Assembly: GCA_903861125.1 (NCBI GenBank)
Contig: CAIOTF010000054.1
Coordinates: 1 to 64,000, forward strand
Direction of reading: 5' to 3'
Length of the DNA: 64,000 bases
Origin: an uncultured Ignavibacteriota bacterium
Lineage (GTDB): Bacteria > Bacteroidota > Ignavibacteria > UBA10030 > UBA8401
Under the pieces are notes generated by a model. It was not told where the DNA came from and searched no databases. It was given only the letters and a program-made list of their open reading frames with translations. Positions 1 through 52,831 of the stretch are shown in pieces (positions within the stretch are counted from its first letter, which is position 1; every line of letters starts with the position of its first letter). Position numbers and translations under genes: made by a program.

Positions 1-631
1 CTCCGTGGTCTTTGTTTTTTTTCTTCGAAAATAAATAAGGACGGACTTCCGTCCGTCCCTACAAATATTCTCCGCGTGCTTTGCGTCTTCTGCGGTGAGT
101 CCCTACATATATTCTCTACGTTCTCCGCGGTGGCCCTTCGGCGCTGGCGCTAAAGCGCCATTGCTCAGGGTGAACATCTTTTTATATTTCTTTCGTATAC
201 CTTGCAAAGACTTTTTAAATATACTTCTGCGGTAAGACAAATCTTAACAAGGTTTTATGAATTCTTCTCTGTCTTCTCCGTGGTCTTTGTTTTTTTTTCT
301 TCTAAAATAAATAAGGACGGACTTCCGTCCGTCCCTACAAATATTCTCTGCGTGCTCTGCGTCTTCTGCGGTGAGTCCCTATATATATTCTCCGTGCTAT
401 CGGTGAACTCTGTGGTGTTTGCTTTTGCTGCCATTCTTTAAAATAATAAGGACGGACTTTCGTCCGTCCCTACTACATATATTCTCTGCGTGCTCCGCGA
501 CCTCTGCGGTGAGATAATTTTGCACGCTTACATGGGTTTTTTGCCTCTACAAAATGATGACTTTAAGATAACAGGGGCGGACTTCCGTCCGTCCCTACAT
601 ATATTCACTGCGTTCTCTGCGGTGAGCACTT
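1..631. repeat. Intergenic repeat island 1
   Basis: This stretch is built from interspersed repeats and holds no credible gene. Element A is a palindrome, GGACGGAC-TTCC-GTCCGTCC, at 39-58, 315-334, 450-469 (one change) and 575-594 (one change). Element B, which begins CCCTTCGGCGCTGG and ends CTCAGGGTGAACATC, lies near 134-180 and has an internal 7-bp stem TGGCGCT/AGCGCCA. Element C is a run of degenerate CTCTGCG, CTCCGTG and CTGCGGTGAG words that follows each A copy. A1, C, B, spacer and C' form a unit of about 276 bases before A2. Short open frames here lie entirely inside repeats and change with copy. The island ends at the stop codon of the next gene on the minus strand. Confidence 0.9.
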
Positions 632-3600
632 TTATTTCATTAGACTCATTTTTCTCACTTCATTGCGCGAGGCCGACCGCAATGCATAAAAATATGTGCC
701 GCTGGAAAGATTTTTACCGTCGAACTTGAGTGAATACAATTCGTTCGGATTGGCGATGCCATTAAAGAGCGTTGCTACGGACTGGCCAAGTGCATTATAC
801 ACCGTAACATTCACCTGCTCCGCTGTTTTCATTGCAAAGGTGATGGTGGTATTCGGATTGAACGGATTCGGATAATTCTGCGTCAGTTTAAAGTCCTCTG
901 CTGTTAAACCAACTTTTACTTCAACGGTATTGCTGTATTCAAATTTTCCGTCGCGGTCGATCTGTTTTAAGCGGTAGGATATAGTACCCGCAGCACTTGC
1001 ATCGTTATAAGAGTATGACTGCGGTGCATTGGTCGTGCCGTGTCCTTCAACGTAACCGATTTTAGTCCACGAGGCTGCTGATTGCTGATTGTTGACAACT
1101 GCTTTTTCTATTTCAAATCCCGCATTGTTCACTTCGGTTGCGGTTTTCCACGCTAACTCAACTCCGTGGCCTCCTGCCCCTTTGGGGGTGGTTATTGCGG
1201 TGAATGATGTGAGTTCGACGGGGAGAGGAGCATTGGTTACTAAATTAGTCTCGATATAAAAATCAGAGGCGTTATCACCACTATCCATACCATTGCCGTT
1301 GCCAAAAACATTTGTTCCCAAATTGCTTCTTCGCCTTACGCTTGATGTATTGCTTGGCGCTGAAGCAGGGCCCGTTCCTTCATAAGCATTTGCTGATGTA
1401 CCAAAACCTATAAAATCTACCACTGTTGCACCAGAGGGAGATTGAACGGCAAAAGCTGTGGTTGAATTGGATAATACTATTTTACCTGCTGATGCGCTCA
1501 TATTAATTGATCCTGTAACCCTCGAGGAAACTGGAAGTCCTACTCCATTAGCTGGGGTCGATGCTTCTTTGATTAGATAGTAACTATTTGCTGAAATACT
1601 ACCTGATAAATTTGTTGTTAGCCAAGATGTGGACGTAGCACTTGCGTATTGAACTGACCAACCTGTTAAATCAACAGAATTACCTGTTGGATTATATAAC
1701 ACAATATAATCATCTGTGTAAGGTGCACCTGTATTTCCGCCTCCGCCATATACCTCTGCAATTACTACATGAGTTGCAATAGGAACACTCAGACACGAAA
1801 TACTTGCTGAAACTGCATTCGTTAAACCGGAAGCAGATGCGGTAAAAGTAAATGTTTCCACATTGCTATAAACAACATCGGTCCAGGTATAACCGCCGTA
1901 GGATAATGATTGTGTAAGACCGGTTGACGAAGATAATGTCCCCGTTCCCGTTGTCCTCGTTAATGTTATTGAATGAACAGCATCAAGATCTAAGTTGCTG
2001 TTAGCATCAAATGATTTAACAACAACACCAAAAGAAGCACCAACGTAAACAGTTGAAGGTGGTTTATTTGCGCCATACATTAGTTTGGTTGCCGTTACTT
2101 CAATTCTGTTATTATCGCCCACTATAGAACTCACGGCACCTCCTGCGTTCGATGCAGAAAAAGCAGATCCGCTTAAATCGGCTGTTGCACTTGTAACAGA
2201 TAATTGAATTTGTTGATTATCGGTTACTGCCGTATTAAAACTTACTCTTACGCTAAAGTCTTTTGTGCCATCGTCGGTTGCCGATAATGTCAATCCTGAA
2301 AATGTTACAGAAGAAGCACCGGCAGTTTCTGTCCCAACTTCTGTTGCACCGTCATACAGCGCAATTCGTCGAATATTTGATGAATTTGTTATGCCAAATG
2401 TTATAGAGTTTAGTGTTGTACCAAAAGCATCCCCGTCCGCCGAACCGCTGCCATCACGTATGGTAAATGTTGCAATTTCAATATCACTGCTGCCACCGAT
2501 TATATCTGTGGCTTGATAATTTTGATATGCAATATTGGTTGGATATGTGAATCCCACTTTTTCAATAATATCGGAAGTGTTTGAATTTGTTCCGGTTCCA
2601 GATACAGCAACATTTTGTGTTGTCGCACCCGTGCTTGCATTTGCAATACTTACTGACTTAACGCCAGTGCTCAATGGTTTGAAACGAGCGTAAATAGTTG
2701 TCGTTGCAACACTACCACTAGATTGAGTTAACGTAATCGGATTTGTGGAAAATGACAATCCGCTTGTTTGCGATATTTCAAAATCCGTAGGAGGTGTTAT
2801 AACGATGTCGTTGGTAAGATTTGTGCCTGATACTGTGTAACTTTGTTCTGATGAACTTGAACCAACAAAAACATTGCCAAAGTTTGTTAGACTAGGCGTT
2901 GATAATGTTATTGTAGGCGTAACGGAAGGAGTAACAACGATTTTAACATTATCAAAAAAAACCGTCTGTGCTGCCGAGGTAGATCCTTGCCAATAAGCAC
3001 CTAAATAAGACATCGTAGTACTTGTTCCGGTACTGTTAGTACCAGAGCCAATTAAAGTGGGCGCACTTCCACTGGTAGGGTCAGCAAAAGCAGAAGAACC
3101 GTCATCTCTTGCATATAATTGCCAACCATTTGTTGATGGATCATACGTTGCCTTGATACTTAAATAATTATTTTTTGTGGCTGGTGCACCGCCAGAAGTG
3201 ATAATAGTAGTATTTGTCCCTTGGAGGCCATTAGTAAAATATATTAATCCTATTGTGTTACCCGTACCATAAATAACTACTGCATATCCACTACCAGTTG
3301 TATTTGGCGTATTTGATGTGGAAGCTAAAACCATCGCTGCGCCATAACTACTTGTGGTTGAAAATCCTGCAAGATCAGACCCTCTATTGGTCCTAAAATT
3401 AAATGTCCAGGTTATAATGCCTGTATTAGAAATTAATTTTGTATTGTATGGAGATATAAACGAACTCAATGTTGTATTGGCAAAAACCCAACCAGAAACA
3501 TTCCCAGTAATTCCTACGTCATTGGTTAATTCAAGTTGAGCGGGGGTGGTATTTCTTCTCCCCCCCCAATCCGCTCCAGAAACATTTACAGACCAAGCAC

Positions 3601-3745
3601 TTGCACCAATTACCCCAGATGCCGTATAAGATGCATTAGTATTGGTGCTAAAATCATCTGAGAAAACGGTCGTTTGTCCCATCACCGCCACACTCATCAT
3701 CATCACAACTACGACCGCAAAAAAAACGTATCGAACTATCTTCAT
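632..3745 (-). CDS. Secreted multidomain protein with lamin-tail domain and T9SS sorting tail
   Basis: This is a cell-surface or secreted protein of about 1037 residues with no enzymatic domain I can see. The start is placed at the ATG at 3745: it is preceded by GGAAGG and opens a signal peptide (MKIVRYVFFAVVVV...VMGQ), whereas the longer frame adds 32 unlikely residues. The first 270 residues look like a lectin-like or concanavalin-type beta domain. An Ig-like segment follows (NFGNVFVGSS onward), then low-complexity Ser/Thr/Gly-rich beta repeats, and a lamin-tail-like domain (VVIAEVYGGGG ... DLTGWSVQY) near residues 690-770. An LPVELTSFTA-like segment precedes the C-terminal NYPNPFNP tail, which ends in a basic patch typical of T9SS type A cargo. 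It probably acts in adhesion or surface structure. The tail is about three-quarters identical to that of the gene at 5585-7378. Confidence 0.85.
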   Translation of the reverse strand: MKIVRYVFFAVVVVMMMSVAVMGQTTVFSDDFSTNTNASYTASGVIGASAWSVNVSGADWGGRRNTTPAQLELTNDVGITGNVSGWVFANTTLSSFISPYNTKLISNTGIITWTFNFRTNRGSDLAGFSTTSSYGAAMVLASTSNTPNTTGSGYAVVIYGTGNTIGLIYFTNGLQGTNTTIITSGGAPATKNNYLSIKATYDPSTNGWQLYARDDGSSAFADPTSGSAPTLIGSGTNSTGTSTTMSYLGAYWQGSTSAAQTVFFDNVKIVVTPSVTPTITLSTPSLTNFGNVFVGSSSSEQSYTVSGTNLTNDIVITPPTDFEISQTSGLSFSTNPITLTQSSGSVATTTIYARFKPLSTGVKSVSIANASTGATTQNVAVSGTGTNSNTSDIIEKVGFTYPTNIAYQNYQATDIIGGSSDIEIATFTIRDGSGSADGDAFGTTLNSITFGITNSSNIRRIALYDGATEVGTETAGASSVTFSGLTLSATDDGTKDFSVRVSFNTAVTDNQQIQLSVTSATADLSGSAFSASNAGGAVSSIVGDNNRIEVTATKLMYGANKPPSTVYVGASFGVVVKSFDANSNLDLDAVHSITLTRTTGTGTLSSSTGLTQSLSYGGYTWTDVVYSNVETFTFTASASGLTNAVSASISCLSVPIATHVVIAEVYGGGGNTGAPYTDDYIVLYNPTGNSVDLTGWSVQYASATSTSWLTTNLSGSISANSYYLIKEASTPANGVGLPVSSRVTGSINMSASAGKIVLSNSTTAFAVQSPSGATVVDFIGFGTSANAYEGTGPASAPSNTSSVRRRSNLGTNVFGNGNGMDSGDNASDFYIETNLVTNAPLPVELTSFTAITTPKGAGGHGVELAWKTATEVNNAGFEIEKAVVNNQQSAASWTKIGYVEGHGTTNAPQSYSYNDASAAGTISYRLKQIDRDGKFEYSNTVEVKVGLTAEDFKLTQNYPNPFNPNTTITFAMKTAEQVNVTVYNALGQSVATLFNGIANPNELYSLKFDGKNLSSGTYFYALRSASRNEVRKMSLMK

Positions 3746-4361
3746 CGCTGCATCCTTCCATATAAATATTTTAAATGTGTTTTTTATTTTTAATACAAAA
3801 GTGACCATCCAAAAACAATTTGCCGGCGATAAGGTATGCATACATTACGAGCGCCAAGTAAAATCTTTATTATTAATGCGTAAACATTTTGTTGTCTTAG
3901 GAGTGCGTTCGTAGAATCAGTGTTTACCCCGACACGGCTGTTCTGCCAAGCCTAACTGGAACCCGCACTGCTGCGTCGCTTCGAAAATAAACCAAGGAAT
4001 AATATTTTTTTAAAGAATGTATGAGAGAGATGGAGCCGGGAAACATTCTGTTATAACATGTGTGAACGAAGGAAACCGCGTTCGTCTTTCCCTGGTAATC
4101 CAATAATGGTGCCAAAAAAACATCATGTTTTTTTTGAAAAATGAGCACTGTTTGTCTGCTTACATGAGCATGGTGTAAACGTTTGTGGATGGGTTGTCAA
4201 CAAACGGTGACGCCTTGAATGCGCCGGCCGCCGGTAAATATTTTGATGCAATCGTCCAGAAAAATATTGCGTAATGGTCTGGATCACAAATTTATTGTGT
4301 TGACCGATAAGGCCGCGCGTGGTAACAACTCACGCAATACTTTTGATTTAAAATCCTGCTA
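3746..4361. other. Intergenic stretch without recognisable gene
   Basis: This gap holds the putative promoter region of the minus-strand gene that starts at 3745. I found no protein-coding frame with family similarity, no RNA gene and no intact repeat copy. A 74-codon open frame at 3924-4148 on the minus strand has no ribosome site and no recognisable domain, so I do not call it. Confidence 0.6.
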
Positions 4362-4392
4362 AGTGACCGTCCCCTTCAAGGTGACGGTCACT
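4362..4392. repeat. Inverted repeat AGTGACCGTC / GACGGTCACT
   Basis: A perfect 10-bp inverted repeat (4362-4371 and 4383-4392) encloses an 11-base loop. It lies directly before repeat island 2. It resembles widespread short palindromic intergenic elements and has no T-run, so a terminator role is not supported. Confidence 0.7.
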
Positions 4393-4860
4393 CACGCTGT
4401 GTGTTCTGCGTTCTCTGCGGTGACCCTTCGGCGCTGGCGCTAAAGCGCCATTGCTCAGGGTGAACATCTTATTAAATTCTCTTGCAGATCTTACACAGGT
4501 TTTTCAAAAATATTTCTGTGATAAGGCAAGCCTTGACATGGTTTAATATTTTCTTCTCTGTAATCTCCGTGGTGTTTGCTTTTTTTCTTCGAAAATAAAT
4601 AAGGACGGACTTCCGTCCGTCCCTACATTTATTCTCTGCGTATTCTGCGCCCTCTGCGGTGAGCCCTATAAAAATTCTCCGTGAACTCCGTGGTAATTGC
4701 TTTTTTCTTCTGAAATAATAAGGACGGACTTCCGTCCGTCCCTACATATATTCTCTGCGCATTCTGCGCCCTCTGCGGTGAGTCCTATAAAAATTCTCCG
4801 TGGTGAATGGTTTTGCGGTAAGATAAGTTTGCATGCAACGTTGATTTTTACTCTGGCTTA
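4393..4860. repeat. Intergenic repeat island 2
   Basis: This is a second island of the composite repeat seen at 1-631. It contains element B at 4424-4470, then the diverged spacer and CTCCGTGG words, element A at 4603-4622 and 4722-4741, and CTCTGCG/CTGCGGTGAG words after each A copy. The order B-spacer-C'-A is the same as in island 1. It ends just before the small membrane-protein gene at 4879. Confidence 0.88.
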
Positions 4861-4878
4861 TCTGATATTGCATGCACT

Positions 4879-5241
4879 ATGAAAAAAATATTTGAACATC
4901 ACACCGAACCTCTGCTGCCGTTCCAGTCATTTATGCAGCGTTTTGTCCGGTCCGTAGCACTGGGCTTTATATTGATTATTGTTTCTCTTCTTACGGGAAT
5001 GGCGGGATATCATTTTCTGGAAGATCTGCCGTGGATCGATGCGTTCGTGAATGCATCGATGATCCTTTCGGGCATGGGTCCGCTGGCCGTGCCGCAGACG
5101 AATGCGGGGAAGATCTTTGCGGGATTATATGCGCTCTACAGCGGACTGGCGGTTCTTATTATTGCGGGAATAATGTTCGCTCCGGCCGTGCACCGGTTTC
5201 TACACCGGTTTCATTTGGAGTCGAAGAAGGATAATTCGTAA
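4879..5241 (+). CDS. Small two-helix membrane protein, ion-channel-like layout
   Basis: The protein has 120 residues. Two strongly hydrophobic segments (about residues 28-48 and 85-104) flank a re-entrant-like stretch (VNASMILSGMGPL) at the position where two-helix potassium channels carry their pore helix and filter. The canonical TVGYGD filter is absent, so conduction is not supported; the match is only in layout. The C-terminus is basic and cytoplasmic in character. The gene stands alone on the plus strand between repeat islands 2 and 3, and no clear ribosome site precedes the ATG. The coding pattern is convincing, but the function is unknown. Confidence 0.65.
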   Translation: MKKIFEHHTEPLLPFQSFMQRFVRSVALGFILIIVSLLTGMAGYHFLEDLPWIDAFVNASMILSGMGPLAVPQTNAGKIFAGLYALYSGLAVLIIAGIMFAPAVHRFLHRFHLESKKDNS

Positions 5242-5289
5242 AAAACATTATCGAAATCTTTTGCGGATTGGCATTGTGAATTTTTTAAA

Positions 5290-5580
5290 AATATATGGGA
5301 CGGACTTCCGTCCGTCCCTACATATATTCTCTGCGTGCTCCGCGGTGACCCTTCGGCGCTGGCGCTAAAGCGCCATTGCTCAGGGTGAACATCTTTTTTT
5401 TTGTAGACCCTGCAAAGTCTTTTAATAAATATTTCTACAGTAAGATAAACCTTAACAAGATTTTATAAATTCTTCTCTGCGTGCTCCCTGCCTGCGGCAG
5501 GCAGGTGCGATCTCTGCGGTGAGTGTTTTTATTCCTTTTGCGATCCCGCTAAAAAGCAGCGGGACTACTGCCAAAATAAA
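5290..5580. repeat. Intergenic repeat island 3
   Basis: Element A lies at 5298-5317, followed by CTCTGCGTGCTCCGCGGTGA words, element B at 5349-5395, the AT-rich spacer, and a terminal C element. That C element is interrupted by a 19-nt palindrome. The order of parts matches islands 1, 2 and 4. The island runs to within a few bases of the stop codon of the T9SS-tagged gene at 5585. Confidence 0.87.
5487..5505. repeat. Nested palindrome CCTGCCTGCGGCAGGCAGG
   Basis: This 19-nt element, whose two arms are CCTGCC and GGCAGG, sits inside the C-type repeat word GTGCTC|...|GCGATCTCTGCGG. Uninterrupted C copies elsewhere read straight through. An identical element lies at 8460-8478. Confidence 0.8.
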
Positions 5581-5584
5581 AAAA

Positions 5585-7378
5585 CTATTTTGTCAGTAGC
5601 ATCTTTTTCACCTCGTTGTGCGATGCCGAACGGAGTGCGTAGAAATATGTTCCGCTGGAATGATTCCTACCGTTGAAGTTAAGCGAATACACCCTACCCG
5701 CATCGGCAACACCGTTGTAGAGAGTCGTCACCGCTTGTCCAATAGCATTATAGACCGTAACATTCACTTGCTCCGTATTCTTCATTGCAAACGCTATTGT
5801 TGTATTCGGATTGAACGGATTGGGATAATTTTGATGCAAGAAAAAATTATTCGGCATCATCTCATTTTGCGCAACGCCAACGGTAATATTGGCCGGTGCG
5901 TAGGTTACGGAAAATATTCCATCAATCGTTGCAGGGAGCGTCAGCGTAAGATTTGTTGAATCGAAATTTGCGTACGGGATTCCATTTCGCGTAACCGATG
6001 CGATCTTCAAATAGCCGTCCGGAACGCCGATCGGTCTCATCCGCAGCTGCCGCAGCTGCTGAATCGGTGAGAAACTATAATAGAGCGTAGCCGGTTCCTT
6101 CTTCACCAGTAATTTCCCATACAGATAGGTATAATAACCGGTTTCAATGGAATGATATCCCGCCTTGCCTGTCCCTCCCTTTGTCGTTCCCCACCCTGCA
6201 ATCATTCCTCCGTATTTATTCATGTTTTCAAACACGTCTCCATAAACGTGGTCAACAAAGTATTTCATGAAGAAGTCGAGTGATCCATCTGCCATTGTAA
6301 TGTATTGCTCCTTCCCCGTCAATTGGTACAACATCAGTCCCGAAGTGATCGCCTGTTCCATCTGCCACCACGCTTTGGCGGTGTCGGAAATACCATACAT
6401 CATCATCACTCCGGTGGCGCGGTAGTAATCTTTATACGGTCCGCCGTTCTGGTGATCGTACCCTTTGTCCAGAACCATCTTTGCAAGATCTTCCGCAACG
6501 GAAAGATACTGCGGATTCTTTTCCAGTTGATAAATGCGCGCAAGACACCATGCAGTCTTCAGCACGTGACCCATGATGGTTCTTTTTTCATCTTCGGTGC
6601 CGCTTCTGATCTGCCACGAAGAAGTGTACCGTTCCGCAAAACCGATCTGCTGCGAGGCGGCAGAGGCAGCGAGGTGATAGATCATGTTATCCGCAAGTTC
6701 CAGCAGGCGGGTTTTATATTTTTGTTCTCCTGTCAGCAGATACAGGTGAAGCACGTGCGTTGTTATTGCATCGACCGTAGCGTTAAAACTTTTGTCCGTG
6801 GGTGCTGTTCCGTTCGCAGCCACATAATCATAATATCCGAAGTTCGCAATATTGGTATCCCACAGTTTCGCTTCGTTATAATCATACGATTTCATCAGCC
6901 AACTCCAATCCGTCGTGTCGCGTGTTGCTTCGAACGAAGCCGCAATACCGAGCGCCGCATAATGCTGGTAGAATGCTGTTTTTGTCGTCGTCGGACTGGT
7001 GGGTGTTCCCGTATTACCAATATCATTATACCAACCGCCGTTGGTTTTGTCCCATGAATTCTTATACATGAAATTCAACGCGTAGCGTGCATACCGCAGG
7101 TACGTCGTATCGCCGGTCATTTGAAATGCGCGGGTGAGTCCGTAGGCATCGCGCGACTGGTTGAGCGTATTTTTAATTGCGGAACCGGAAAGATTTCCCT
7201 GACGGTTAATATTGACGTTAAATCCGCCGTTCACCGGATCGTATGCTTTCATCCAGAACTTTGCGCAGCTGTCAACATACCCGAAGGTTTTTTCGGGCGT
7301 TTGCAGGTACGGTGATTTGAATGTGTATTGGGAGAAGAGCTGCTGACAGAGCAAAACAATAAATAGAATTTTTTTCAT
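5585..7378 (-). CDS. Secreted AGE-type epimerase-like protein with T9SS tail
   Basis: The 597-residue protein has a signal peptide (MKKILFIVLLCQQLFSQ) and an alpha/alpha-barrel domain of the N-acylglucosamine 2-epimerase / cellobiose epimerase superfamily over about residues 30-400. Supporting motifs include MGHVLKTAWCLAR, matching the family GHxxxTAW block with its histidine, and the later AWWQMEQAITSGL block. A beta region follows, then a T9SS type A tail (NYPNPFNPNTT ... SSGTYFYALRSAS). The family isomerises or processes sugars, but the substrate cannot be told from the sequence. Export by T9SS is unusual for an epimerase and points to an extracellular saccharide. The 3' end abuts repeat island 3. 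A small membrane-protein gene is divergent upstream. Confidence 0.8.
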   Translation of the reverse strand: MKKILFIVLLCQQLFSQYTFKSPYLQTPEKTFGYVDSCAKFWMKAYDPVNGGFNVNINRQGNLSGSAIKNTLNQSRDAYGLTRAFQMTGDTTYLRYARYALNFMYKNSWDKTNGGWYNDIGNTGTPTSPTTTKTAFYQHYAALGIAASFEATRDTTDWSWLMKSYDYNEAKLWDTNIANFGYYDYVAANGTAPTDKSFNATVDAITTHVLHLYLLTGEQKYKTRLLELADNMIYHLAASAASQQIGFAERYTSSWQIRSGTEDEKRTIMGHVLKTAWCLARIYQLEKNPQYLSVAEDLAKMVLDKGYDHQNGGPYKDYYRATGVMMMYGISDTAKAWWQMEQAITSGLMLYQLTGKEQYITMADGSLDFFMKYFVDHVYGDVFENMNKYGGMIAGWGTTKGGTGKAGYHSIETGYYTYLYGKLLVKKEPATLYYSFSPIQQLRQLRMRPIGVPDGYLKIASVTRNGIPYANFDSTNLTLTLPATIDGIFSVTYAPANITVGVAQNEMMPNNFFLHQNYPNPFNPNTTIAFAMKNTEQVNVTVYNAIGQAVTTLYNGVADAGRVYSLNFNGRNHSSGTYFYALRSASHNEVKKMLLTK

Positions 7379-7450
7379 GGACGTTCTTTCGGCAAGAAAA
7401 TTGCTTTTAGCATAATGATTGATGAAATTTACAAAAAGAAAGCGAATAAT

Positions 7451-7846
7451 ATGACTATAAATTCAAAGATCATTACCGGGGTGTATGTTGTGATCTGCTC
7501 AATCACCGTTCTTGTTATGCTGACAACGTCGTTTGAAATGTTCAATGAAAAATATTTTCCGTCGTTCATGCTGGCGCAAAAATACGCGCTTCCTTTAATC
7601 ATCACTGCGATGGCAATCGTCTTTCTTACCTTCTTTGAACCTGAGAGGTTATCGCAGAAGACCACGCTAACCGTTATGCGCAGTCTTATGGTGCTGACGT
7701 TTGCAATATTTACGTTTTATGTTACAACGCTGGATATGTCAAAGACTTCAACCGGAACACTCATCATCTTTATCCTTCAATGGATTGCAACATTGTTTGA
7801 AACGGTAAATTTTTTCCTCCTTAAAGAAAACGCAGCCGTTCGGTAA
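7451..7846 (+). CDS. Small four-helix membrane protein, unknown
   Basis: A predicted inner-membrane protein of about 131 residues has four hydrophobic segments (GVYVVICSITVLVML, LPLIITAMAIVFLTFF, LMVLTFAIFTFYV, TLIIFILQWIATLF). An in-frame ATG at 7415 would add 12 hydrophilic residues. I prefer 7451, which leaves more room for a promoter after the divergent start at 7378. Neither start has a strong ribosome site. I do not recognise the family. Confidence 0.6.
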   Translation: MTINSKIITGVYVVICSITVLVMLTTSFEMFNEKYFPSFMLAQKYALPLIITAMAIVFLTFFEPERLSQKTTLTVMRSLMVLTFAIFTFYVTTLDMSKTSTGTLIIFILQWIATLFETVNFFLLKENAAVR

Positions 7847-7895
7847 ACGATATTGGTCAATGTTTCATCCCGGTAATGTGATTTTAAATTAATAG

Positions 7896-8500
7896 GGATG
7901 GACTTCCGTCCATCTCGACATATATTCTCTACGTGTTCCATGATCTTTGCGGTGACCCTTCGGCGCTGGCGCTAAAGCGCCATTGCTCAGGGTGAATATC
8001 TTTTTATATTTCGCTTGTAGACCTTTCGTAGACTTTTTAAATATATTTCTGCAATAAGACAAACCTAAAGAAGGTTTTTAAATTCTTCTCTGTCTTCTCC
8101 GTGGTCTTTGCTTTTTTTCTTCTAAAACAAATAAGGACGGACTTCCGTCCGTACCTACATAAATTTTCTGAGTTTTCTGCGCCCTCTGCGTTGACCCTTC
8201 GGCGCTGGCGCTAAAGTGCCATTGCTCAGGGTGAATATCTTTTTATATTTCGCTTGTAGACCTTTCGTAGACTTTTTAAATATATTTCTACGGTAAGACA
8301 AACCTAAAGAAGGTTTTTAAATTCTTCTCTGTCTTCTCCGTGGTCTTTGCTTTTTTTCTTCTAAAACAAATAAGGACGGACTTCCGTCCGTCCCTACATA
8401 AATTCTCTGCGTGCTCTGCGACCCCTGCGGTGAGTCCTATATAAATTCTCCGTGTTCTCCCTGCCTGCGGCAGGCAGGTGTGAACTCTGTGGTGAAAGCT
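7896..8500. repeat. Intergenic repeat island 4 with a 239-bp tandem duplication
   Basis: Element A copies start at 7896 (diverged, GGATGG...), 8135 and 8374, exactly 239 bases apart. Element B copies start at 7956 and 8195, again 239 apart. So 7896-8134 and 8135-8373 are two tandem copies of one composite unit (A, C words, B, spacer, C'), followed by a third A and C words. The two copies are nearly identical, much closer to each other than to the units in islands 1-3, so the duplication is recent. The island ends at the stop of the T9SS-tagged gene at 8505. Confidence 0.9.
8460..8478. repeat. Nested palindrome CCTGCCTGCGGCAGGCAGG, second copy
   Basis: This copy is identical to the element at 5487-5505. 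It also splits a C-type repeat word (CGTGTTCT|...|TGTGAACTCTGTGG), and also lies just before the 3' end of a T9SS-tagged gene. Confidence 0.8.
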
Positions 8501-8504
8501 TTTC

Positions 8505-10037
8505 TTATTTTATCAACACCATCTTTTTCGTTTCAACTATATTTCCCGACCGCAGCTGATATAAATAGATGCCGCTCGTCAGCCGCGAGGCATTGAATGG
8601 AATGTCGTAATCCCCCGCGTCCATCTTCCCGTTCAGCAGGACCGCCGTTTCTTTTCCGAGGATATCAAAGATTCTCAACGACGTAAAATTTGCCGCGGGG
8701 ATCGTGAACGAAATATTCGTTGACGGGTTGAAAGGATTCGGATAGTTCTGATGCAGCACGAATTGAGAAGGAATTGCCTCCTCTTGTTTTACTCCCACGG
8801 TTTGCGTTAACAGTACCGCGCCCGTGGCAAGATCGCACAGAAAGAATTTTCCTCTCACCCATGAGCTTTGATTATTTGACACCTGATACTGCTGAGTGTA
8901 GGCGGCCGCCCAGTAGATCTTGCTGGTATCAAATCCTAACGGACCGAACCATCCGAACTTTTGATCGGCAATGGAAAGTTCGATGCGGAATACCAGCGTA
9001 TCGGGAATCGGCAGCCGCCGGAACGCCTTTCCGCCGGCATTCTCTGCGTTGGCTATCACAGTTGCGCTGGAGGCAACGGTTGAATAATTGGTGATCGGTT
9101 TTAACTGTTTAAGCCAATCAACGTACCCCAGATCCAGTATATTTGTTTTTGATCCGGACGATTGAACTGAAATTGACTGACCGGCAGAATTATTATTCAC
9201 TGTGTAAGCAAACTCCCAAGAACTCGATCTTCCCAGAGTATCAGCCTCCCATGCGGAGATTCTTCGGAGCACTTTATCCGCAGCAAGATTTTTTGCAAGA
9301 CTGTCGGCGATGGATATTGTTTCCGAAAAAATCTTCGGCGAAAAATTCATGAAGGTAAGATTGAGATTTGTTTTGGAACCATTGTCGATGACGATTGAGT
9401 CGCCGAACGCCACCACATCGATCCCTTTATCGGGATCAAGGCTGCCGTCATGATTAACATCCTTGACGGCGAGAGGCCAGTACGTTCCGTTGCTCACATT
9501 GGGGATCGTGTATGTTCCGTTACTGTTCACATTGGCCCAGGCGGCAAACGGAGGCGGACCATTCTTCCCCTCATCTTTCATTATGTTGACACGTGCAAGA
9601 CCAACGACCGATCCCTCCTGAGAAATTCCCGTCGATCCTGAAAGAACGGTTCCGCTCACCGAGTATGGTGCAAAATCAGCACCGGTTGTAAAATAATAGA
9701 CGACCGGCGTTGAAAGGATTGCACCGGATTTTGCTTTCATATAAATAAACGCAATGAAATACGAATGATCCGGTTTCAGCACAACATTGGCATACATCGT
9801 TTTTTGATCGGCACTGAACCCGGAGGATGTGACACTGTCGATATTAGCGAACGACATATTGTCCCCGTTCGCATTCGTTGCCACGGTGTCGATCGCCTCG
9901 CTGAAAGTAATGCTCACAGTCGTATTCAGCGAAACATTCTTTGCATTATTAGCAGGGACTGTTGACACAACGCTCATCTGAGCAAAGACAACGAAAGGAA
10001 AAAGAAGAAGAAAACCGAAATGCAGAGATTTTTTCAT
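8505..10037 (-). CDS. Secreted Ig-like-fold protein with T9SS tail
   Basis: The 510-residue protein has a signal peptide (MKKSLHFGFLLLFPFVVFAQ). A Big_5-type Ig-like domain follows (STVPANNAKNVSLNTTVSITF onward, about residues 23-115), then a carboxypeptidase-regulatory or CnaB-like beta-sandwich at about 125-215. That sandwich contains a calcium-loop-like DVNHDGSLDPDKG. The middle part is unassigned. The C-terminus is a T9SS type A tail (NYPNPFNPSTNISF ... SGIYLYQLRSG). The role is probably surface-exposed or adhesive, with no catalytic domain seen. This tail differs clearly from the two tails upstream. Confidence 0.82.
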   Translation of the reverse strand: MKKSLHFGFLLLFPFVVFAQMSVVSTVPANNAKNVSLNTTVSITFSEAIDTVATNANGDNMSFANIDSVTSSGFSADQKTMYANVVLKPDHSYFIAFIYMKAKSGAILSTPVVYYFTTGADFAPYSVSGTVLSGSTGISQEGSVVGLARVNIMKDEGKNGPPPFAAWANVNSNGTYTIPNVSNGTYWPLAVKDVNHDGSLDPDKGIDVVAFGDSIVIDNGSKTNLNLTFMNFSPKIFSETISIADSLAKNLAADKVLRRISAWEADTLGRSSSWEFAYTVNNNSAGQSISVQSSGSKTNILDLGYVDWLKQLKPITNYSTVASSATVIANAENAGGKAFRRLPIPDTLVFRIELSIADQKFGWFGPLGFDTSKIYWAAAYTQQYQVSNNQSSWVRGKFFLCDLATGAVLLTQTVGVKQEEAIPSQFVLHQNYPNPFNPSTNISFTIPAANFTSLRIFDILGKETAVLLNGKMDAGDYDIPFNASRLTSGIYLYQLRSGNIVETKKMVLIK

Positions 10038-10408
10038 AGCGACCCCGAAAGAAATATTTAATTGGAGAAAAGTATTTCAGATTTGCCAATATCAACACCT
10101 GTGTGCCATTAACCCGCCTGAAGTGCTGAAACAGCAAACACTGTCATGAGAGCTAACAAGGCCCGGGGGAGAAAATTTTTCCGGGGAGGAATGTTAGAGA
10201 GAGTCCTGATGAAAAGACTGCTCATATTTTCTATTTTAAATTATACCTTTTTCCCGGTGTTGTCAAGAAACGGCCGTCACATATGAGAGTGTTTGGTCTT
10301 GATTTAACGGGATTCGCGAATTTCAAAAAAACCTTTATTCTTCCCCCATTTTTTGTATATTCACGAAACAATTTTTATTCCCATTAACGTCAACTATTCA
10401 TTACAGTT
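10038..10408. promoter_or_regulatory. Divergent promoter region, with -10-like TATATT before dcd
   Basis: This 371-base gap separates the divergent genes at 10037 and 10409. On the plus strand, TTTTGTATATTCAC at 10351-10364 carries a TATATT at 10356-10361, giving a predicted leader of about 40 bases for dcd. The same TTTTYGTATMTTCA motif precedes the genes at 33699 and 52979. No gene or RNA was recognised in the rest of the gap. Confidence 0.4.
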
Positions 10409-51682: not shown

Positions 51683-52831
51683 TTAGACAAGTCCATCTTT
51701 TTCCATTTGCTTTTGCTGCAGTTCCCTGATCCGCTGCAGATACTCTCCACCTTTAACGGGCTGCGAGAACATTAAAATTTCGTAGGCCTGTATAGCCGCC
51801 TTGTATTCGCCTTGCGATGCATAGATCTCCGCCAGTGTTTCCGTTACTGCATCCGTTTCATATGCCTCTTCTTCGGGAATTTCCGGCGGCACAGGATGCT
51901 GCGGCTGATAGTTCTCCTGCGGAATAATCTTTTCTGCGCTCTGTAATTTTTCCGCCAGTGCGTCAATGTTGGTGGATGACTGCGAATCTACCGATGCAGA
52001 TTCTTCATTCATTGCATTCAATTCGGCAAACAGCTGAGCTTGCTCCGGAGAAGCAAAGACAGGTTCCGGTTCAATGTGAATATCCATACCCGTTACAGAT
52101 TCTGCGACCTCTGCAGAATCATTCACAAAGGTGTGTGCGTTGTTTTCTTCGCTCGTCACACTCTCCTGCGCCGTCAGGTCGCCGCGGAGATAGTCATCAA
52201 GCGACTCCGGGGATTGCGTATTGATACGAGATTGATTCTGTGTATAATAATCATCGTATGAGGGAAATGCATTACCGGCTGTACTGACGTCGTCGGTTAC
52301 TGTCTCAAATAATGATTCATGAATGTACGGCTGTTCAACAGATGAACCGGACAATCCCTCCGGTTGTGCGGTGAGTCCTAATTCTTCAACGGCTGCTGTT
52401 TCAAACGGATTGTGCAAAGAATTTTCTTGCACCGGATCCTGTGAATATGATTGCTGTCCGGCGGAATATGTATCGGTTTGTGCCGGCGCAAAATAATTTT
52501 CATCCGTGGTGCGTGTCGACTCATCCGGTTTGTTCGGAACAGAGATAAGAAGTTGTGCGGCAGTTTGATTGAACGGCGACAATTCCAATGCCTTTTCAAA
52601 TGCAGCCTGAGCCCTGGTATATTCTTTCAGTGCCAGATGTGCTTTGCCGAGAACGATGTAGCCGGCATAATAACCGGGATAACTTTTTAACCCTTCGTTC
52701 AACAGCTTCATCGCTTCGGCTGCCTGTTCTTTGCCTACATACAGATCGGCAAGACGCGCAAAGAGAGGTGATTGGGGGTTTTCCGCCAATTTTTGCGCAA
52801 GAAACTCTATGTCGAATTCTTCAAATTCCAT
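51683..52831 (-). CDS. Tetratricopeptide-repeat protein
   Basis: The 382-residue protein has no signal peptide. Two to three N-terminal TPRs (SPLFARLADLYVGKEQ, YIVLGKAHLALKEY, AFEKALELSPFNQ) cover about residues 15-100. An acidic, Ser/Gln/Glu-rich disordered linker (about 105-320) follows, then a further TPR at about 325-375 (LAEIYASQGEYKAAIQAYE). It is probably a scaffold. No pathway is suggested by context. Confidence 0.8.
   Translation of the reverse strand: MEFEEFDIEFLAQKLAENPQSPLFARLADLYVGKEQAAEAMKLLNEGLKSYPGYYAGYIVLGKAHLALKEYTRAQAAFEKALELSPFNQTAAQLLISVPNKPDESTRTTDENYFAPAQTDTYSAGQQSYSQDPVQENSLHNPFETAAVEELGLTAQPEGLSGSSVEQPYIHESLFETVTDDVSTAGNAFPSYDDYYTQNQSRINTQSPESLDDYLRGDLTAQESVTSEENNAHTFVNDSAEVAESVTGMDIHIEPEPVFASPEQAQLFAELNAMNEESASVDSQSSTNIDALAEKLQSAEKIIPQENYQPQHPVPPEIPEEEAYETDAVTETLAEIYASQGEYKAAIQAYEILMFSQPVKGGEYLQRIRELQQKQMEKDGLV

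Follow-up and report, generated by a model that had tools for sequence, protein, structure and literature searches.

Repetitive extragenic palindromic sequences (REPs) tagged with GTAG are hairpins of 20-40 bases with the tetranucleotide at one end and complementary changes in the stem, and are located mostly past the 3' ends of genes, as well as in the spaces between convergent ones (Di Nocera et al. 2013, PMC3733652, in the portion drawn on here). The same portion describes a transposase gene flanked by the same REP as frequent, though it may be missing, and lists the Proteobacteria, Cyanobacteria, Chloroflexi and the Planctomycetes-Verrucomicrobia-Chlamydiae (PVC) group, not Bacteroidetes or Chlorobi, as carriers of these repeats (PMC3733652). 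Tag and hairpin are recognised in vitro by REP transposases, to a degree that varies between groups (PMC8266576, in excerpt). Subclass 2.4 of these enzymes (TnpA-REP, or REP-associated tyrosine transposases, RAYTs) is abundant in Cyanobacteria and Bacteroidetes, together with canonical REPs, and REP transposase systems are thus known in or near the lineage considered here (PMC6006769, in excerpt). The present analysis concerns a composite repeat in the first 8.5 kb of a 64,000-base stretch (hereafter the window) of contig C54 of an uncultured Ignavibacteriota bacterium, whose genome totals 4.19 Mb in 54 contigs. The composite lies beside genes for proteins tagged for the type IX secretion system (T9SS). 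Its palindrome A looks like a GTAG-tagged REP by anatomy, and the composite is probably a REP island formed by spread of A with local duplication and recombination, its bias towards T9SS genes being most likely due to descent.

The composite is made up of A (a 20-base palindrome), arrays of 9-base words (C and C'), a 40-base nested palindrome (B), an A+T-rich spacer and a 19-base palindrome (D), which are distributed over four clusters (Table 1). The first-pass annotation, which had described a unit of 240-280 bases occurring at least five times before 8.5 kb and next to all three T9SS-tagged genes, was largely right about the repeat and is confirmed in part. The repeats are real, and the full order A-C-B-spacer-C' occurs only three times (26-300, 7883-8121 and 8122-8360, at spacings of 239 or 276); two further B copies belong to incomplete units, one without A (about 4397-4589) and one in which C words and D replace C' (5285-5530). 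The unit is missing from the next 55 kb, as had been stated, neither A nor B being present there and a single C-word match lying at 52100. Three clusters meet the 3' ends of the T9SS genes at 632, 5585 and 8505, the end at 5585 being 54 bases away with another palindrome in between, and cluster 2 abuts no 3' end because it is flanked by two divergent genes. The T9SS tails of all three genes were confirmed by PF18962 and TIGR04183.

Ten A palindromes with up to three mismatches were identified in the window, the last at 8374-8393, against an expectation of 0.01 from shuffled sequences; all ten have the same orientation, on the minus strand, and six are not followed by B. The A hairpin has a stem of 8-12 pairs and a 4-base loop, and the minus strand of positions 30-66 folds with a z-score of -6.3 as RNA and -4.8 as DNA, the B palindrome being unexceptional as DNA (z -1.8). 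A search with the stem alone in 98 genomes of the order returned 18 sites, all within a single genus and spread over four of its genomes (this genome with 10, G007 with 6, G004 and G006 with 1 each), and GTAG was present on exactly one side of the hairpin at 16 of them (10/10, 5/6, 1/1 and 0/1 for this genome, G007, G004 and G006, respectively). The exceptions are a GCAG at G007:C477 and the tagless site in G006. G007 provides the better test of the tag, since the ten sites in this genome are related copies. The tag was judged on the stem-only sites because most of the relatives' rows in the alignment of 34 A copies had been picked by eye with the tag in the motif. In that alignment, 250 of the 272 stem cells are paired and compensatory changes occur at five of the eight stem pairs; three rows are out of register (G003:C370, G006:C176 and G006:C153) and the C8 copy, a shorter hairpin, was omitted. 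At the level of sequence, A therefore has the anatomy of a REP, and its stem is confined to one genus among the 98 genomes.

Elsewhere in the genome, the composite occurs at C12:69929-70367 and, without the spacer, at C16:30620-30863, which brings its places to three with the window. Lone A copies (up to two mismatches) occur on C7, on C8 and twice on C15. All ten A clusters of the genome are intergenic by our own gene calls and eight abut a 3' end, the others being cluster 2 and the C12 cluster, which is cut by the contig end. With GTAG-tagged REPs, as described in the portion of the survey used, A shares the hairpin, the tag at one end, the stem changes and the placement downstream of genes or between convergent genes, and differs by its low copy number, its same-way arrays in the window and the lack of a transposase gene found adjoining it (PMC3733652). 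At C15:230958 two A-type hairpins stand face to face with the tags outward, and the pair at C7:72555 has the same arrangement, with one base of the first tag changed. These inverted doublets resemble the REP doublets forming hairpins (REPINs) described in part by Bertels and Rainey (2011, PMC3116915), whereas no such pairing is seen among the copies in the window.

The genus also carries genes for single-tyrosine (Y1) transposases. The one match in this genome (on C23, within 453948-457202) scores 68.6 bits against the NCBIfam model for REP-associated tyrosine transposases (cut-off 80) and 25.4 against Pfam Y1_Tnp (cut-off 23), and is followed by eight copies of a GTAG-type hairpin other than A, two with an altered tag, exactly 74 bases apart; by eye, the gene adjoins an apparent DNA polymerase IV gene. 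Around 30 Y1 loci of the genus (of 43 matches; two of the loci, L162 and L167, overlap), 24 GTAG hairpins were found in 86,151 bases, compared with 6 in 400,000 bases of this genome. They are present at 12 of the 30 loci, one of which holds 10 of the 24. Near the Y1 genes, six control tetranucleotides had 1 to 20 hairpins, and in the 400,000 bases 14 to 45, the strongest control being GATG (20 and 45). The genus thus resembles the TnpA-REP/RAYT systems in having Y1 genes with arrays of GTAG hairpins and differs from them in that no partner was found for A.

Table 1. Repeats, repeat clusters and T9SS-tagged genes in the first part of the window
Feature	Positions	Remarks
A palindrome with GTAG tag	39..62	
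A palindrome with GTAG tag	315..338	
A palindrome with GTAG tag	450..473	One loop change
A palindrome with GTAG tag	575..598	One stem change; not terminator-like in the scan
A palindrome with GTAG tag	4603..4626	
A palindrome with GTAG tag	4722..4745	
A palindrome with GTAG tag	5298..5321	
A palindrome, diverged	7896..7919	Compensatory pair change; tag altered to GTCG
A palindrome with GTAG tag	8135..8158	One stem change
A palindrome with GTAG tag	8374..8397	
B palindrome	134..173	Further copies at 4424-4463, 5349-5388, 7956-7995, 8195-8234
C-word array (example), 9-base period	346..371	Others near 70, 484, 4634, 4753, 8405
D palindrome, 19 bases	5487..5505	Within C words
D palindrome, 19 bases	8460..8478	Within C' words; G004 lacks it at the corresponding place
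Tandem pair of 239-base units	7886..8363	215/239 identical
Repeat cluster 1	1..631	Order C' (cut by contig end), A, C, B, spacer, C', A, C, C', A, C, A, C; reaches the end of the T9SS gene at 632
Repeat cluster 2	4380..4860	Order C, B, spacer, C', A, C, C', A, C, C'; divergent genes on either side
Repeat cluster 3	5285..5584	A, C, B, spacer, C words with D, another palindrome at about 5541-5571; flanked by the ends of convergent genes
Repeat cluster 4	7883..8504	Tandem pair of 239-base units followed by A, C, C' with D; convergent genes end on either side
T9SS-tagged protein, lamin tail domain (PF00932)	632..3841	
T9SS-tagged N-acetylglucosamine (GlcNAc) 2-epimerase-like protein	5585..7378	
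T9SS-tagged protein with immunoglobulin (Ig)-like domain	8505..10037	

The other pieces of the composite, C and C' words, B and D, are read as repeats separate from A. Of the seven genomic places where B occurs, five lie in the window, all below 8.3 kb; B-like palindromes were also seen within elements with inverted ends TATCTCAAAAA in two genomes of the same family. The C-word pattern (up to two mismatches) has 17 matches in the window, where 0.07 are expected, 16 of them below 8.5 kb. C words were found in 11 of the 395 genomes of the phylum, several with one weak match, and a C-word 20-mer matches 12 stretches of viral contigs, without adjoining A by eye; being widespread, C words are therefore uninformative on the origin of the composite. 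In some genomes of the phylum they form inverted-repeat hairpins, as judged by eye. Arrays of C words precede a tRNA-Asp gene both in this genome (C42, 13.5 kb) and in G004 (C208), and the array thus appears to be conserved in place within the genus. No name was found for the C words, and a single query for the word and A strings yielded no paper.

The palindrome D, which the first-pass annotation had not mentioned, has three copies in this genome, all within the composites and all in the same register of the words (after CTC and before TG), as is a D-like palindrome at G007:C186. In G004, D is missing at the like place, yet present in another word copy, a pattern that fits insertion as well as copying; D at G007:C100 has different flanks. 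Cyanobacterial small dispersed repeats are very short palindromes lodged inside other repeats; D is like them in sitting inside the words and differs in having three copies, which may have been copied together with their surroundings. Bacterial interspersed mosaic elements (BIMEs) are mosaics of REPs and other motifs. The composite is like them in that several repeat types are interleaved between genes and unlike them in that the REPs of the window do not alternate in orientation; the word arrays and the palindromes B and D are not known as motifs of BIMEs.

Further searches were also performed. A profile of A and C had no match at E-values up to 1 in 20 sampled stretches of this genome, the reversed-sequence control giving three weak matches (best E 0.1). 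Exact A had no match in viral contigs. A foreign donor was sought with a 20-base pattern of the C and B junction, which had five matches in genome contigs, none of them in a composite, with about two expected by chance by our own estimate, and the idea of such a donor was set aside. A cmscan of positions 1-10000 at E-values up to 1 returned as its single match the snoRNA sR35, inside a gene and far below the gathering score. An integron-type cassette array was set aside on the gene directions (- + - + -), which are not mostly one-way.

The growth of the island can be followed in two places. The tandem units starting at 7886 and 8125 are 98% alike in their B-to-C' parts and 70% in their A-C parts. 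The left part of the C12 composite resembles cluster 1 of the window and its right part cluster 2, each part being about half: the 69 informative sites form 14 runs, a degree of clustering that no shuffle out of 10,000 reached. The main switch from one to the other falls between 70167 and 70204, where an A copy is located, with single sites of the opposite type to either side. The C12 copy was not simply pieced together from the window clusters, as it differs from both at several sites. Tandem growth and the mosaic at C12 are seen in the sequences, and the composite is accordingly read as a REP island enlarged by tandem duplication and recombination, with crossover at A as the putative mechanism of the switch. 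Side observations were made at the hairpin pairs near C15:230980 and C7:72580, past which a T9SS-tail relic stands behind a complete T9SS gene; the relic is in frame at C15 and interrupted by stops at C7, which looks like the joining of two gene ends at a REP. Further, at about C15:230840 a T9SS tail has some eight extra residues relative to the tail at C15:237228, the DNA there being palindromic by eye.

The following course of events is proposed. Several kinds of short hairpin-forming repeats would have settled in intergenic DNA, beside and within one another. Among these, A would be a miniature element moved, now or in the past, as single-stranded DNA by a REP-associated transposase of the Y1, histidine-hydrophobic-histidine (HUH) type. 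The pieces would then have been multiplied in place by tandem duplication and segments exchanged by homologous recombination, with the near-identical stretches of A as the likely crossover points, a step suggested by the tandem pair and the chimeric C12 copy. The islands lie mainly in 3' spaces, where insertions are presumably least harmful and where the A hairpin could serve as a terminator of the T9SS gene. A few founding sites in variable, T9SS-rich regions, some spreading together with the ends of T9SS genes, may have given rise to the present distribution.

Relatives within the genus were compared at the place of cluster 4. Orthologues of the T9SS gene at 8505 are present in six of seven relatives, and a contig end truncates one of these. 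In this genome, the space between this gene and the convergent gene at 7415 has 658 bases, mostly composite. In G004, whose protein is 87% identical, a piece made up of A, C and C' with D adjoins this gene end and is truncated where the contig stops. The orthologous space has 383 bases with other repeats in G007, and 35, 65 and 121 bases with only a short plain hairpin, as judged by eye, in G003, G005 and G006. Cluster 4 is therefore lineage-specific. The sequence flanking the clusters, in which target-site duplications would be sought, has diverged strongly in the relatives.

The genome holds at least 150 T9SS tails (150 of the 232 candidates scored). All ten of its A clusters flank a T9SS gene, eight at the 3' end and two upstream, compared with 9 of 147 background spaces of at least 60 bases (10.5% by length). 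The background consisted of 20 sampled stretches and the window above 10 kb, with genes called by a simple caller of our own and T9SS tails assigned by a motif rule. The clusters were judged to represent about four independent origins (C54 with C12; C16; C8; C7 with C15), which at 10.5% would all fall beside T9SS genes with a chance of about 1 in 8,000 by our own arithmetic. A bias towards T9SS genes, which the first-pass annotation had proposed to look for, is thus present in this genome, but consists of few events and does not reach most T9SS genes, which have no A copy. Among 11 A sites examined in G007, two flank a T9SS gene; these sites were chosen from a longer list that includes weak matches, and four of them (C78, C382, C477 and C547) have one flank at a contig end. 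No T9SS neighbour was seen for the C-word cluster without A on C42, before the tRNA-Asp gene. A single literature query for a link between such repeats and T9SS yielded no paper. The bias most likely reflects descent rather than a T9SS-specific function.

An alternative is that the repeats are crossover points at which T9SS cargo genes are swapped, and are kept beside these genes by selection. The complete association of the A clusters with T9SS genes speaks for it, as do the recombination between clusters with its switch around A and the hairpin pairs at C7 and C15:230958, which separate a whole T9SS tail from the relic of another. In addition, nothing matching the genes at 632 and 4879 was found in the loci compared, a small part of the relatives' genomes, whereas on the right G007 largely keeps the order of the genes from 5585 to about 21.7 kb. 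Left of the 5585 orthologue are other genes in G006 and a contig end in G007. We nevertheless regard this alternative as unlikely, given ten A clusters for so many T9SS genes, their few origins, no A-C match in any of the 20 sampled stretches, the low count beside T9SS genes in G007 and no swapped cargo caught. The suggestion of a target for exchange therefore stands as far as exchange between repeat copies is concerned (the C12 chimera), and exchange of cargo genes is only hinted at by the conserved gene order, which in G006 stops where the cluster at 5.3-5.6 kb lies. A more far-reaching form of the idea, that REP islands may be recombination junctions shuffling the genes of T9SS surface proteins, with A and the similar T9SS tails as crossover points and the repeats marking an actively exchanging repertoire, would fit the chimera that switches at A, the hairpin pairs between whole and relic tails and the ten-of-ten association; as swapped cargo was not seen, it is considered a rather doubtful speculation.

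The possibility that the composite is a functional RNA or an array of terminators, selected for the ends of transcripts of secreted proteins, was also considered. Nine of the ten A hairpins of the window are terminator-like when read on the minus strand, on which the three T9SS genes lie, and none is so on the opposite strand; positions 1-10100 contain 26 terminator-like sites compared with 10.2 (standard deviation 4.3) in shuffles. Five minus-strand pieces fold better than shuffled sequences (z -2.9 to -6.3), and the compensatory changes in the stem point the same way. Against this, the sole A hairpin that is not terminator-like, at 575, is the copy nearest the gene end at 632, and for one of the five pieces, 8361-8504, good folding is seen on the plus strand too (z -3.5). 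Cluster 2 is upstream of the two genes beside it, the G007 copies occur in either direction relative to the upstream gene, and a short unrelated hairpin takes the place of the composite in the orthologous spaces of G003, G005 and G006. Selection for this role is thus held to be improbable, and the earlier idea of a spread of RNA 3' ends is retained in the form that A hairpins may end transcripts as a by-product of a genomic repeat.

A single element of 240-280 bases of the miniature inverted-repeat transposable element (MITE) type, inserted in one piece, would account for the much similar order of the pieces at C12, C16 and in the window, but is disfavoured and very improbable, as no terminal inverted repeats bounding the unit were seen in a repeat search of 1-10000, copies stand head-to-tail, C16 lacks the spacer and the pieces are found apart (A without B in the window and G007, C words in other genera). 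As one mobile unit the composite is likewise disfavoured, and the proposal of a non-autonomous element is plausible for A, with its REP anatomy, but not for the 240-280-base unit in its entirety.

A REP island, with A as its GTAG-tagged REP, thus remains the probable interpretation, and that of the first-pass annotation is partly supported. Several observations weigh against this island model. The link to T9SS genes exceeds the background, which plain drift into 3' spaces leaves unexplained. The copy number of A is low for a REP (18 sites within two mismatches in 4.19 Mb), and its copies in the window share a single orientation, although inverted pairs are common among REPs. No A flanks a Y1 gene in the 30 loci of the genus that were examined, and the control tetranucleotide GATG partly matches the GTAG excess around the Y1 genes (20 against 24), though it is frequent elsewhere too, with 45 hairpins in the 400,000 bases. 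The C12 chimera sits at a contig end and may be an assembly error. On balance, the composite is likely to be a genomic by-product rather than a T9SS-specific element.

One neighbouring region was also noted: adjoining cluster 2, positions of about 3842-4379 form some 540 non-coding bases with several small hairpins.

The kind of system described here is already known, since REP transposases have been reported from the Bacteroidetes (PMC6006769, in the part consulted). To it, A adds a REP family that, within the 98 genomes searched, was found in a single genus of the order, and that belongs to a T9SS-bearing lineage. The clusters also offer a view, within a single genome, of the growth of REP islands, which may proceed by duplication, nesting of palindromes and recombination switching around the REP. 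If the association with T9SS genes held across strains, it would provide a handle on the exchange of genes for secreted surface proteins.

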